Below, in pieces: positions 187 to 12,849 of a stretch of DNA of 20,346 nucleotides. This DNA comes from a virus: IMG/VR virus record IMGVR_UViG_3300025151_000394, positions 1 through 20,346 of that record. One strand, 5' to 3'. The notes below the pieces were generated by a model. The model made no database searches and was not told the DNA's origin. It worked only from the letters and a program-made list of their open reading frames with translations. A program made the position numbers and the translations under genes. Position 1 is the first letter of the stretch; every line of letters begins with the position of its first letter.

Positions 187-1121
187 AATTAAAAATACTA
201 GACCTGTTTTCAGGTATAGGGGGTTTTAGTTTAGGATTAGAAGCTACAGGACACTTTGAGACTGCTGCATTCTGTGAGATTGAACCCTATTGTCAAAAGG
301 TTTTAAAGAAACATTGGCCTGATGTTCCTATTTTTGATGACATTCGCAAATTAAAAGGAACAGATATTGGAACAATCGACATTATTACAGGAGGATATCC
401 CTGTCAGCCCTTCTCAGTCGCTGGAAAACAAAAAGCTGAGCAAGATCCGAGACACCTCTGGCCAGAGTATTTTAGACTTATCCAAGAACTCCAACCAACA
501 TGGGTTATTGGAGAGAATGTTAGTGGACATATTAAACTCGGTCTCGACTCGGTACTTGAGGACTTGGCGAGTGAAGGTTACTCCTCGAGGACATTTAGTA
601 TTTCAGCTGCTAGCATCGGTGCCAACCACAAAAGAGAACGCATCTGGACTGTGGCGTACACCAGACGCAGTTTCGGGAGGGAGCAATCTTCCAGGTATAA
701 AAAAAGCTCTGGACTCTGGTCATTTGAAAAGACCAAGTGGTCAACAGATACAAGTGAGGTTACAAGATCAAGTGAGAGAACCGAGACTGTGGCCAACACC
801 ACAGGCGACAGATGGAACGAGAGTAAATCAAATAAGATCTCCCAATCAACTATCAGAGAAAGCCAAGAAGGGGGGATGCTCCAATCTGAGAGAACGAGTA
901 ATGTGGAGAACTCCAGCAACAAGTCCATCAACAGCTTCTCAAACAGTAGCGAAGAACGACAAAAAGGATTGGGTGGAAAATGGTGGGAGTCTGAACCCAG
1001 AGTGGGTAGAGTGGCTCATGGGATTCCCAAAAGGGTGGACAGACTTAAAACCCTCGGAAACGCAGTAGTACCTCACATACCCTATTACATTGGTCAAGCG
1101 ATTGTAGAAAGTTATCAATGA
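183..1121 (+). CDS. DNA (cytosine-5-)-methyltransferase
   Basis: This enzyme would transfer a methyl group from S-adenosylmethionine to C5 of cytosine in phage DNA, probably protecting it from host restriction. Visible motifs, in order, are motif I DLFSGIGGFSLGL (residues 7-19, cofactor binding), motif IV GGYPCQPFS (70-78, catalytic Cys74), motif VI ENV (111-113), the motif VIII-like HKRERIW (149-155), and motifs IX/X in RVAHGIPKRVDRLKTLGNAV (276-295, GNAVVP at 292-297). At 312 aa it is a normal length for a small phage C5 methyltransferase. The start is GTG at 183, overlapping the preceding stop; the end (TGA 1119-1121) overlaps the terminase ATG. The segment between motifs VIII and IX (about 156-275), where the target-recognition domain should lie, is unusually rich in S, R, E and N. 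Its third codon positions are GC-rich, unlike the rest of the gene, and this coincides with the overlapping frame described separately. Confidence 0.95.
   Translation: MKLKILDLFSGIGGFSLGLEATGHFETAAFCEIEPYCQKVLKKHWPDVPIFDDIRKLKGTDIGTIDIITGGYPCQPFSVAGKQKAEQDPRHLWPEYFRLIQELQPTWVIGENVSGHIKLGLDSVLEDLASEGYSSRTFSISAASIGANHKRERIWTVAYTRRSFGREQSSRYKKSSGLWSFEKTKWSTDTSEVTRSSERTETVANTTGDRWNESKSNKISQSTIRESQEGGMLQSERTSNVENSSNKSINSFSNSSEERQKGLGGKWWESEPRVGRVAHGIPKRVDRLKTLGNAVVPHIPYYIGQAIVESYQ
367..1068 (+). CDS. Candidate overprinted gene inside the methyltransferase gene (+1 frame)
   Basis: A 233-codon open frame lies +1 relative to the cytosine methyltransferase and ends at TAG 1066-1068. It carries three similarly spaced W-x-T-P motifs (LWRTPDA, LWPTPQATDG, MWRTPAT) and the ending GGSLNPEWVEWLMGFPKGWT. 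From memory, that ending resembles a recurrent class of phage proteins; this is not verified. By hand count over 51 codons (about 792-945), G/C at third positions is 14/51 in this frame and 32/51 in the methyltransferase frame. The undisputed methyltransferase start has 14/60. So the middle of the locus looks coding in this frame. The start is uncertain: TTG 367, or ATG 517 with GGAGAG at 510-515 (giving 183 aa). Part of the resemblance could be forced by methyltransferase motifs VIII and IX/X read out of frame. The function is unknown. Confidence 0.5.
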   Translation: MEQSTLLQEDIPVSPSQSLENKKLSKIRDTSGQSILDLSKNSNQHGLLERMLVDILNSVSTRYLRTWRVKVTPRGHLVFQLLASVPTTKENASGLWRTPDAVSGGSNLPGIKKALDSGHLKRPSGQQIQVRLQDQVREPRLWPTPQATDGTRVNQIRSPNQLSEKAKKGGCSNLRERVMWRTPATSPSTASQTVAKNDKKDWVENGGSLNPEWVEWLMGFPKGWTDLKPSETQ

Positions 1122-2867: not shown

Positions 2868-4118
2868 TTGACGATTAAAATATTGCAAGGTAATTGCATA
2901 GACAAGATTAAAGAACTTGAAGATAACTCTATTGATTGTGTTGTCAGCTCTCCACCTTACTTTGGTTTAAGAGATTATGGAGTTGATGGTCAGTTTGGTT
3001 TAGAAAAAACCTATCAAGATTATATTGCTAATACAGTTAAGGTCTTTGAAACCTTAAAACCTAAACTAAAAGATACTGCTACAATTTGGTGGAATGTTGG
3101 AGATAGTTATTCAAGTGGCAGCAGAAAAACAATTAATTTACAAAATGTTAGAAAACCTAAATCTAATGAAATTTATAAAAGCAAACAAAAATATTTAGAT
3201 GGTTTAATTGTAAGACCAGCAATGCAAACAGGTATTAAAGAAAAAGATTTATTAATGATACCTAATAGAGTTGCAATAGCTCTACAAGATGCTGGTTGGT
3301 ACATTAGATCAGAGATTATTTGGCATAAACCAAATCCAATGCCTGAAAGTGTAAGGGATAGACCAACATCAGCACATGAAAAGATATGGTTAATAACTAA
3401 ATCTAAAAAATATTATTATGATGCAGATGCAATAAGAGAACCTTTAACATCATCTTCATTAACAAGATTAAGTCAAGATATTAAAAATCAAAAAGGCAGC
3501 ACTAGAGCTAATGGTGGAATGAAATCAAATGGAAATATGAAAGCTGTAAGACCATATAGAGTTTTAGATGCAGACCAAAGACCAGAAATTGTTGAATATA
3601 GAGATTTACCTGAACATAATAAAATTAGAGAATATTTATCATTAAATAGAAAAAATAAAAATATTACTATTGACGAAATAGAAAAACATTTTGGTAATCA
3701 AGCTGGTCATCATTGGTTTGAAAAAAATGGGAGTTATCCTAGTAAAGATGATTGGTTAAAATTAAAAAAATTATTAAATTTTGATGATACTTATGACAAA
3801 CAATTAACAACAATTAATATTAAAAGTGGATTAAAACAGAACCATCCTTTAGGTAAAAATAAACGCAATGTTTGGACTATAACCACTAAACCTTTTAAAG
3901 GCGCACATTTTGCAACTTTTCCTAAAGATTTAATAGAACCTTGTATTAAAGCTGGTTGTCCAGAGGGTGGTGTAGTTTTAGATCCTTTTGGTGGTAGTGG
4001 AACAACAGGCATAGTTTCAGCTCTTAATAGTCGTAATGCTATTTTAATAGAACTTAATCAAAACTATATAGATATTGCCAACAAAAGAATTAATAAAGAT
4101 GTAGGTTTATTTAATTAA
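2868..4118 (+). CDS. Site-specific DNA methyltransferase, beta class (probably N4-cytosine)
   Basis: This enzyme would methylate an exocyclic amino group of a DNA base using S-adenosylmethionine. The catalytic motif IV VVSSPPYFGL (SSPPY at residues 27-31) comes first. The cofactor motif DPFGGSGTTG (372-381) lies near the C-terminus, followed by an acidic strand end ILIEL (391-395). This order defines the beta class. S-P-P-Y rather than D-P-P-Y favours N4-cytosine over N6-adenine, but does not prove it. Residues of about 200-320, including GHHWFEKNGSYPSKDDWLKL, probably form the target-recognition domain. The 416-aa length is normal. The start is TTG at 2868 directly after the terminase remnant's stop, giving MTIKILQG, a standard N-terminus for this family. 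The gene is markedly AT-rich. With the C5 methyltransferase it makes two modification enzymes flanking the terminase. Confidence 0.92.
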   Translation: MTIKILQGNCIDKIKELEDNSIDCVVSSPPYFGLRDYGVDGQFGLEKTYQDYIANTVKVFETLKPKLKDTATIWWNVGDSYSSGSRKTINLQNVRKPKSNEIYKSKQKYLDGLIVRPAMQTGIKEKDLLMIPNRVAIALQDAGWYIRSEIIWHKPNPMPESVRDRPTSAHEKIWLITKSKKYYYDADAIREPLTSSSLTRLSQDIKNQKGSTRANGGMKSNGNMKAVRPYRVLDADQRPEIVEYRDLPEHNKIREYLSLNRKNKNITIDEIEKHFGNQAGHHWFEKNGSYPSKDDWLKLKKLLNFDDTYDKQLTTINIKSGLKQNHPLGKNKRNVWTITTKPFKGAHFATFPKDLIEPCIKAGCPEGGVVLDPFGGSGTTGIVSALNSRNAILIELNQNYIDIANKRINKDVGLFN

Positions 4119-10657: not shown

Positions 10658-12136
10658 ATGATTGAGTTCGGTGATTTACAAGCTGATCTTCCTTCTTATC
10701 AGAACTCTGGAGCTTTAAAAGTAGATAATGTAATACCTTTACAAAAAGGTTATCAAGCTCTACCAGGTTTTCAGGCATTAACGACAACAGGATTATCAAA
10801 TGCTGCTGTGGGATTATTTACAAGTTTTAGTGCTGATGGTTCTACAAACTATGCTGGTGATAGGACAAAACTCTATCAGATGAACTCCTCATTGGTGTTT
10901 GTAGATAAAAGTAAAGCTGGTGGTTATAGCAACTCTACTACAGAGAATGCTAGAGATTTCTGGGCCTTTACACAGTTTGGATCTAATATTATTGCTACTA
11001 ATTATGCAGATAATATTCAAAAGTTTACAGAAGGTACAAGTAGTGCTTTTAGTGATTTAGTAGCTCTTAAAGCAAAATACATAGCTGTTATTAGAGATTT
11101 TGTTGTTGCTGGATATACTAATGAATCAAGCACAGCTTATAACCAACGAGTAAAATGGTCAGGTATTAATGACAGTTCTACTTGGACTCCTAGCCAATCA
11201 ACACAATCTGGTTATCAAGATATAGTTGGTAGTCATGGAAATGTGCAAGCAATAGTTGGTGGTGAGTCTGCTGGTGTGATCTTCATGGAAAAGGCAATCT
11301 ATAGAATGTCTTATGTCGGTGTGCCATTAATCTTTCAGTTCGATAAGATTGCAGATAACATTGGAGCTTTTGCACCTAAGTCAGTAGCTTCTTATGGAAA
11401 CCAAATATTTTTCTTAGCACAAGATGGTTTTTACAAACTAACTGGTGGTCAACAATTAACACCTATTGGTAATGGTAAAGTAAACAATTTCTTCTTTGAT
11501 GATTTATCATCAAACCTAGATGGTATCACAAGTGCGATAGATCCTAACAACTCAATAGTTGTATGGTCATATCGAGGTGGTGGTGCTACAGGAACTACTA
11601 ATAACAAATTTGTTATTTATAACTATGCAGTTGATAAATGGAGTACAGGAAGTGGATTAGATTTAGAGTTCATATCTAGTGCTTCTCAAGAGTCATTTAC
11701 AACTTTAGAGAGTTTAGATGTATTAGGTAATTTAGATAACTTAACAAGATCATTAGACTCCTACTATTATGGTGAAGGTATTGTAGGTTTAGCTGGTTTT
11801 AATAGTGAACATAAATTTGGTAAGTTTATAGCAACAAGTTTATCAGCAACAGTTGATACAACAGAGTTTGAAGGTGCTGAAAATAAAAGATCAACACTAA
11901 TTAATTGCAGACCGATTGTAGATGGAACATCAAATACAACAGTTACAGTCACACCAATTACAAGAAACTCACAACTTGATACTATATCAGTAGGTGATGC
12001 AGTATCGACCAATGATAGTGGATCTTGTCCATTAAGATCAACATCCAGGTATCATCGAGTTAGAGTAAATGTAACAGGAAATTTTAATACCTTATCAGGT
12101 GTAGATATAGAAGCGAGACCAGAAGGTGGCAGATAA
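10658..12136 (+). CDS. Tail nozzle / tail tubular protein
   Basis: The 492-aa protein opens with MIEFGDLQADLPSYQNSGAL and VDNVIPLQKGYQALPGF, a start typical of podovirus nozzle proteins (P22 gp10/SU10 nozzle-like), which form the tail tip channel below the adaptor. The body is beta-rich with repeated blade-like segments (for example VAGYTNESS..RVKWSGIND, GVIFMEKAIYRMSYVG, IFFLAQDGFYKLTGGQQ and FVIYNYAVDKWSTG), suggesting a beta-propeller. There is no signal peptide or membrane segment. ATG at 10658 follows the adaptor stop directly. The final 11 bases overlap the next gene (GTGGCAGATAA). Confidence 0.85.
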   Translation: MIEFGDLQADLPSYQNSGALKVDNVIPLQKGYQALPGFQALTTTGLSNAAVGLFTSFSADGSTNYAGDRTKLYQMNSSLVFVDKSKAGGYSNSTTENARDFWAFTQFGSNIIATNYADNIQKFTEGTSSAFSDLVALKAKYIAVIRDFVVAGYTNESSTAYNQRVKWSGINDSSTWTPSQSTQSGYQDIVGSHGNVQAIVGGESAGVIFMEKAIYRMSYVGVPLIFQFDKIADNIGAFAPKSVASYGNQIFFLAQDGFYKLTGGQQLTPIGNGKVNNFFFDDLSSNLDGITSAIDPNNSIVVWSYRGGGATGTTNNKFVIYNYAVDKWSTGSGLDLEFISSASQESFTTLESLDVLGNLDNLTRSLDSYYYGEGIVGLAGFNSEHKFGKFIATSLSATVDTTEFEGAENKRSTLINCRPIVDGTSNTTVTVTPITRNSQLDTISVGDAVSTNDSGSCPLRSTSRYHRVRVNVTGNFNTLSGVDIEARPEGGR

Positions 12137-12455
12137 TCAGTTTCCTTTTGTACCTTTATCAATACCAGATACAGGACAACACTTACGATTAGTTTCAACA
12201 TCATTGAACAATACGATCAATGGTAAATTAAACAGTACAGGAACAATCACACTTAGAGCAAGTCAAACTACTACTACTCTTAGCGATGCAAGAATAGGTG
12301 GTAATTCAGTTGTTGTGTTTATGCCAACAACTGCAAATGGAAGAACAGCTCTCAATGGACTTTATGTTTCTGCAAGAGCAAATGGGAGTGCCACACTTAC
12401 TCATGCAAGTTCAGGTAACACAGATCAAAACTTATCCTACTGTGTCATTGGATAA
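12126..12455 (+). CDS. Conserved small virion-associated protein (109 aa)
   Basis: This is a beta-rich 109-aa protein with the segments LNNTINGKLNSTGTITL, ARIGGNSVVVFMPTTANGR and ATLTHASSGNTDQNLSYCVI. Similar small proteins are, from memory, common next to the nozzle gene in marine and other podoviruses and are usually left as hypothetical or tail-associated. A role in trimeric tail parts is possible. GTG at 12126 is the start, inside an 11-base overlap with the nozzle gene, so translation is probably coupled. A different frame is open across its 3' half (12298-12441), but that extension is not supported as coding. Confidence 0.78.
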   Translation: MADNQFPFVPLSIPDTGQHLRLVSTSLNNTINGKLNSTGTITLRASQTTTTLSDARIGGNSVVVFMPTTANGRTALNGLYVSARANGSATLTHASSGNTDQNLSYCVIG

Positions 12456-12849
12456 TGTTGTAACTAGAGTACCTAGTGAAGATGTTGAATTTATATGGAG
12501 TCAAGTAGCTCCATTATTAGAGAAAGCATTAGACGAAAATTACAATATTGAAGATATATTGTATGGCCTCGCTAATGATCGAATGCAACTATTTATTAGT
12601 TGGAATAATAACAAAGTCGAAAGTGCTGTTGTCACAGAAATAGCACGATACCCCAACTCGAAAGTATTACGATATTTTCTAGCTGGAGGAACTAACCTAG
12701 AGAATTGGTTAGAAAGAATACAAATAGTCATAGAGAAATTTGCAAAAAAACAAAATTGTACTCATCTTGAAGTCGCTGGTCGAAAAGGATGGGTTAGAAA
12801 ATTGAAAGGATTTAGAGTTAAAGCATACTTACTAAATAAGGAAATATAA
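12442..12849 (+). CDS. GNAT-like phage acetyltransferase
   Basis: This 135-aa product resembles a small phage GNAT-like family in the tail module. It begins near NVVTRVPSEDVEFIWSQVAP, has the central strand QLFISWNNNKVESAVVTEI, and then the helix LENWLERIQIVIEKFAKKQN. It ends CTHLEVAGRKGWVRKLKGF, where the terminal G-F matches the end of the GNAT fold. The classical acetyl-CoA loop is not obvious, so the enzyme may be degenerate or have another role. The start is uncertain: GTG 12442 (14-base overlap with the previous gene) or TTG 12448. Neither has a clear ribosome binding site, implying coupling. The frame is open back to 12298, but that part overlaps the preceding gene and looks out of frame. 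Confidence 0.75.
   Translation: MSLDNVVTRVPSEDVEFIWSQVAPLLEKALDENYNIEDILYGLANDRMQLFISWNNNKVESAVVTEIARYPNSKVLRYFLAGGTNLENWLERIQIVIEKFAKKQNCTHLEVAGRKGWVRKLKGFRVKAYLLNKEI

Follow-up and report, generated by a model that had tools for sequence, protein, structure and literature searches.

Canonical C5-methyltransferases are built from a large domain, which carries motifs I–VIII and X, and a small domain, which carries the target-recognition domain (TRD) and motif IX and makes specific contacts with the DNA (PMC3404938). Natural two-chain enzymes are also known: M.EcoHK31I, where one chain has motifs I–VIII and X and the other motif IX, and M.AquI, where the chains have motifs I–VIII and IX–X respectively; the predicted TRD of M.EcoHK31I has been placed in its large chain (PMC3404938). 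M.EcoHK31I, which recognises YGGCCR, is by its description the nearest precedent for the locus studied here. Lee, Kam and Shaw (1995) reportedly found that its small chain is translated from another frame within the gene of the large chain, and that activity in vitro requires the two together. The multispecific C5-methyltransferases of Bacillus phages, such as SPR and phi3T, carry between motifs VIII and IX short recognition modules that are exchangeable and vary in number. The ShiLan domain, finally, is an HNH endonuclease that lies hidden within a phage methylase gene, a homing insertion that occurs sporadically (PMC11855218). No described family of nested phage methyltransferases was found in the open-licence literature, and an earlier description may exist elsewhere.

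The window, which is the whole stretch of DNA analysed, is a 20,346-base phage record from IMG/VR. It contains a C5-cytosine methyltransferase gene, here called alpha, which matches PF00145 (E=6e-47) and PHROG_363. At its start alpha overlaps an upstream ORF through GTGA, and at its end it overlaps the terminase gene through ATGA. Taking the frame of alpha as frame 0, a second gene, beta, is nested within it in the +1 frame. The features are as follows, with the evidence for each in brackets.

183–1121, + strand: alpha, C5-cytosine methyltransferase large-domain polypeptide, 312 amino acids, GTG start
183–677, + strand: alpha residues 1–165, large-domain motifs I–VIII (AF2, M.HhaI HMM, structure alignment)
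678–1052, + strand: alpha residues 166–290, an open, low-complexity, predicted disordered spacer replacing the small domain (AF2, cassette substitutions)
1053–1118, + strand: alpha residues 291–312, the motif X (GNAVVP) helix (pLDDT 80–96; beyond the constraint from the nested ORF)
353–359, + strand: AAAAGGA, Shine-Dalgarno-like, 7 nt 5′ of the nested TTG (sequence)
367–1068, + strand: beta, nested +1 gene, 233 amino acids, TTG start, TAG stop (open frame, synonymous constraint)
367–651, + strand: N-terminal arm of beta, over catalytic motifs IV–VIII of alpha (AF2, fourfold third-base agreement)
652–789, 790–903 and 904–990, + strand: the three W-x-T-P cassettes of beta, presumed target-recognition modules (cassette comparison)
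991–1044, + strand: motif IX in beta, LNPEWVEWLMGFPKGWTD (invariant residues, frame-0 counterpart in 8 loci)

In the AF2 model of alpha, residues 1–165 mostly have a pLDDT of 82–97 and residues 291–312 of 80–96, while residues 166–290 lie mostly at 34–60 and have almost no secondary structure (alignments for structure prediction were built without rows from annotated records). Like M.HhaI, alpha has the large-domain fold, the model aligning to 2i9k_A with a VIA-align Z of 24.6 and an rmsd of 2.3 over 195 residues. The frame-0 profile matches M.HhaI only at 12–177 (motifs I–VIII) and 297–318 (motif X), with no match to the small domain. The catalytic residues P73-C74-Q75, E111-N112 and R153, together with G292-N293, are invariant in 102 homologues. 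An earlier note on this DNA had taken the motifs of the methyltransferase to be intact; this holds for motifs I–VIII and X but not for motif IX, which is not recognisable in alpha and is found in the +1 frame. By computation, alpha is a polypeptide without a small domain, unlike M.HhaI and the monomeric C5-methyltransferases, in that the TRD and motif IX are off the catalytic chain.

To follow the +1 frame beyond the window, relatives were gathered with the +1 protein, the methyltransferase and the +1 alignment from viral contigs, bacterial genomes and phage records. The 233-codon +1 ORF reported in the earlier note is indeed present at 367–1068, with its three W-x-T-P repeats (+1 residues 96, 142 and 180) and its ending, GGSLNPEWVEWLMGFPKGWTDLKPSETQ. 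The hand-counted GC3 values were reproduced on recomputation: over 792–945 the +1 frame has 27.5% and the methyltransferase frame 62.7%, and the first 60 codons of the methyltransferase have 23.3%. When the synonymous codons of the methyltransferase were shuffled and the longest +1 open stretch was measured, the 237-codon stretch of the window was equalled in 1 of 20,000 permutations. Among homologues selected by their methyltransferase, p was below 0.01 for +1 in most and for +2 almost never; a few GC-rich homologues gave a +1 value above 0.01. A long +1 ORF is present in 216 of the 217 unique loci whose frame-0 gene is complete, with a median open length of 250 codons in +1 and 48 in +2 for a median gene of 317 codons. 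The sole exception, L120, is a canonical methyltransferase: frame 0 encodes a normal TRD and motif IX, and many stops interrupt the +1 frame. Three further loci, L280, L281 and L283, are of the same kind and have no comparable +1 ORF; all four have the TRD and motif IX on the catalytic chain, as monomeric enzymes do. A broken +1 frame beside an intact enzyme, which the earlier note had named as evidence against its proposal, occurs in none of the 216 non-canonical homologues.

Beta was not found as a solo gene among 150 unique loci picked by the +1 C-terminal motif. At least four frame-0 methyltransferase motifs are kept in one ORF in 139 of these, and the remaining 11, with few frame-0 motifs, are cut by the end of the contig or have frame 0 disrupted. 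Several loci depart from the common pattern. In L005 (KT997847, 1243–2235) and L361 (Mycobacterium phage Llama, 1305–2064) frame 0 is shifted once upstream of the variable region with the remainder intact, and is annotated as two genes; sequencing error, decay and a further split all fit. In L039 (1240–2700) and L077 (1988–2946) stops abound in the frame-0 spacer that separates motifs VIII and X, and the +1 cassettes are open. Motif X of L039 is intact in frame 0 beyond these stops, a position that is difficult to account for without its separate translation.

Beta would be translated from its own start, in the window the TTG at 367 behind AAAAGGA (353–359). In 63% of the 216 loci codons 45–68 include a +1 start codon preceded by a Shine-Dalgarno match of 5 or more, compared with 1–11% in control frames and positions. 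The best-placed start in this interval is ATG in 154 loci, TTG in 42 and GTG in 16.

The pattern of synonymous change follows the nested ORF closely. In close loci (n=25) third-position differences are 0.37 before the overlap, 0.13–0.19 over the catalytic part and 0.33 after it. For distant loci, those under 55% identity, the agreement of fourfold third bases was used as the measure. This is 0.25 over codons 2–57, rises to 0.61 at codons 58–66, runs along the overlap at 0.61, 0.37, 0.36, 0.35, 0.55, 0.58 and 0.74 to codon 293, and is again 0.25 in the tail past the overlap. Codon by codon, the edges of the constraint fall at codon 59 and at about 290–291, the limits of the +1 ORF, and from G292 on the agreement drops to 0.31–0.26. 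The arm of beta (367–651) has an agreement of 0.35–0.55 compared with 0.25 outside. Over codons 58–160 frame 0 dominates, with the +1 constraint added to it. In a clade of 8 loci, here termed C-type, constraint is absent from codons 57–95, present over 97–270 and absent from 275–330; 7 of the 8 have a shortened +1 ORF that starts at about codon 90–101, and the constraint therefore tracks the shortened ORF. Codons 97–130 also vary little at third positions in the canonical L120, L280, L281 and L283, a sample of only four sequences.

Between motifs VIII and IX the +1 frame consists of cassettes of about 38 residues that open with W-x-T-P. We counted 571 of these, from 1 to 8 per gene; they are common to many loci and reshuffled among them. 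In 388 homologous cassette pairs, recruited by nucleotide similarity, the differences at +1 codon positions 1, 2 and 3 are 0.16, 0.11 and 0.40, and amino-acid differences per codon are 0.176 in +1 compared with 0.464 in frame 0, the +1 frame being the less changed in 373 of the 388. It is therefore the +1 frame that encodes the conserved protein between motifs VIII and IX. The annotated frame here is a poorly conserved, predicted disordered spacer that is kept open: from the +1 protein about 3 frame-0 stops would be expected per locus, yet frame 0 is open, in loci that were chosen for an open frame 0. The earlier note was right that, of the two readings of the target-recognition stretch, only that in +1 looks native. 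Cassettes that are near-identical or clearly related, PTPTTQEIEHPNMKLTPTGRRLTKDGKNSHSLNLADKV being one example, turn up at differing positions and in differing combinations in L003, L008, L010, L018, L023, L044, L046, L089, L123 and L181, spanning marine phages and clostridial and Paenibacillus loci, and this recurrence suggests active cassette exchange. An exchangeable series of modules between motifs VIII and IX is also what the SPR and phi3T enzymes have, though their modules are in frame with the catalytic motifs. The locus resembles ShiLan in that a phage methylase gene contains a further protein in a different frame and its own reading there is disordered. It differs in that nearly every enzyme of the family has the nested gene as a component, and this gene matches no HNH family.

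With the constraint confined to the overlap and the substitution pattern specific to the frame, beta has the properties of an overlapping gene; computationally, it is a conserved, separately started, predicted protein-coding gene nested in alpha. The proposal of dual coding made from the window alone is thus strongly supported by the open +1 frame and the constraint over the overlap, synonymous change being depressed exactly there.

Beta matches no family in Pfam, NCBIfam or PADLOC, and matches PHROG_1008, PHROG_26627 and PHROG_31772. Its AF2 model alone is poor (mean pLDDT 62, pTM 0.30); in the arm a helix at 45–59 and a hairpin at 64–84 are predicted, with a pLDDT of about 70–92 over residues 41–80. 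A fold search with this model gave nothing above noise, and the beta profile had no match among PDB sequences. At the C-terminus of beta, LNPxWVEWLMGFPxGW fits the motif IX pattern. The motif is LNPEWVEWLMGFPKGW in the window, read in +1, compared with LHPRECARVMGYPDSY in M.HhaI and RRVTPTERLKLQGFPDDW in L280. Residues E215, M218, G219 and P221 of beta are invariant (102 rows). The comparison that decides the matter is with the C-type loci, where the equivalent segment, RLNPDWVEWLMGYP, is in frame 0 shortly before GNAVVP, while the cassettes remain in +1. The C-type profile aligns this segment to M.HhaI 270–316 (motifs IX–X), and because this alignment is weak alone (i-Evalue 2.9) the assignment rests on the position directly before motif X. 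In a further group, D-type, alpha stops after motif VIII and the +1 ORF has the cassettes, motif IX and motif X; examples are the mycobacteriophages Dylan and Alma, Streptomyces phage Samy and the bacterial loci L140 and L181. Motif X is on the small chain only in the D-type relatives L140, L181, L360, L362 and L363, that of the window being in alpha. Simple regular expressions under-called motif IX in counting architectures; most of the loci left unassigned were then inspected by eye and proved to be variants of the B-type (MGFQ, MGFE, TFMGFP) together with the 8 C-type loci. By computation, motif IX belongs to beta.

The division of the motifs between alpha and beta is exactly that between the large and small domains, and therefore we read the locus as a nested two-subunit C5-methyltransferase, very probably with alpha as the catalytic large domain and beta as the target-recognition small domain. 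Alpha (183–1121) would provide the AdoMet-binding and catalytic motifs I–VIII and the motif X helix, with the disordered spacer between them, and beta (367–1068) would supply the small domain, comprising the N-terminal arm, the W-x-T-P cassettes that set specificity and motif IX. Brought together in trans, they would form a single methyltransferase, in which the cassettes of beta may contact the DNA and set the target sequence. With this enzyme the phage could modify its own DNA, as protection from host restriction or for a regulatory purpose. The earlier note had assigned specificity to the annotated frame and an unknown protein to the +1 frame; these roles are probably reversed, as it is the +1 protein, with its cassettes and motif IX, that resembles a target-recognition small domain. 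As in M.EcoHK31I, the large chain of the window has motifs I–VIII and X and the small chain motif IX, and the small-chain gene lies in another frame of the same DNA, as is reported of that enzyme. Unlike M.EcoHK31I, the TRD is here apparently in the small chain, as reshuffled W-x-T-P cassettes. The D-type loci are like M.AquI (CYCGRG) in that the first chain ends after motif VIII and a second one carries what follows; the window differs from M.AquI in keeping motif X in alpha and in having beta nested within alpha in +1. The arm of beta has no counterpart in the canonical enzymes.

A single chain made by programmed frameshifting, with motifs I–VIII read in frame 0, the cassettes and motif IX in +1 and motif X back in frame 0, would restore the canonical order of motifs I–VIII, TRD, IX and X, and would fit the intact frame-0 motif X past the stop-filled spacer of L039. 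It would, however, need two shifts in opposite directions, and the openness and constraint of the +1 frame begin at about codon 59, where the start codon and Shine-Dalgarno sequence also sit, some 100 codons ahead of the point at which a shift would first be useful. The spacer is open in frame 0 despite the stops expected there (in loci chosen as open), 139 of the 150 loci chosen by the +1 motif keep their frame-0 motifs in one ORF, and the D-type +1 ORF carries motif X itself so that a return shift is unnecessary. Frameshifting is on this evidence improbable. We hold it similarly doubtful that beta is an independent accessory protein, for example in anti-restriction or host take-over, with the target being found through the frame-0 variable region. 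While the lack of a recognised Pfam, NCBIfam or PADLOC family and the published placing of the M.EcoHK31I TRD in the large chain (PMC3404938) would suit such a role, motif IX, a part of the canonical C5-methyltransferase, is in beta and moves between frames, the mycobacteriophage +1 ORF carries both IX and X, the variable region as read in frame 0 shows little conservation and is predicted to be disordered, and in the 150 unique loci no beta gene occurs away from a methyltransferase.

Base composition, codon bias, RNA structure or the conservation of the frame-0 protein might also open and constrain a second frame without its being a gene. Conserved frame-0 motifs do force some similarity on the +1 protein, and the few GC-rich homologues with a permutation p above 0.01 and the low third-position variation of codons 97–130 in the four canonical relatives, small as that sample is, point the same way. 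Chance or non-coding constraint is nonetheless extremely unlikely, given the 1 in 20,000 result in the window, the sharp edges of the constraint at the ends of the ORF, the excess of change at +1-phase third positions within the cassettes and the shift of the constraint with the ORF start in the C-type clade.

From the relatives it seems likely that, among the phage and prophage C5-methyltransferases annotated as having a single chain, a very large class consists of nested two-subunit enzymes, with out-of-frame specificity cassettes over the spacer of alpha, recombination that swaps specificity while both frames stay open, and a motif IX that has switched frame. Beta is missed by most annotations. 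Gene callers often keep only one frame, so that the annotation of many such enzymes lacks half of the protein. The nested ORF of Paenibacillus phage Shelly has been annotated, as 'g55 internal gene', and for Dylan, Alma and Samy the depositors annotated two methyltransferase genes. Samy was considered as an un-nested locus and rejected as such: upstream of the annotated gene the +1 frame remains open over alpha and encodes arm sequence, and for this reason the annotated start of its beta is probably late. If the two-subunit reading is true, predictions of specificity from the annotated variable region read a spacer and not the recognition domain, expression of the annotated enzyme alone should fail, and cassette swaps in +1 would be a simple way to obtain enzymes that methylate new sequences. 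For work on overlapping genes the family offers an unusually large body of natural material: about 230 codons of overlap in hundreds of phage and bacterial loci, and clades that have a later start to the overlap, an earlier end or no overlap at all.

A second DNA methyltransferase in the window, of the N6/N4 type (2868–4118, + strand; PF01555, E 7e-51), is encoded three genes downstream of the cytosine enzyme, directly 5′ of the portal gene. A GNAT acetyltransferase-like gene (PF13673; 2368–2820, + strand) lies between the putative large terminase gene and this methyltransferase gene. The ORFs at 12126–12455 and 12298–12849 (+ strand) overlap by about 158 bases in different frames, and the listed start of the latter is probably too early.
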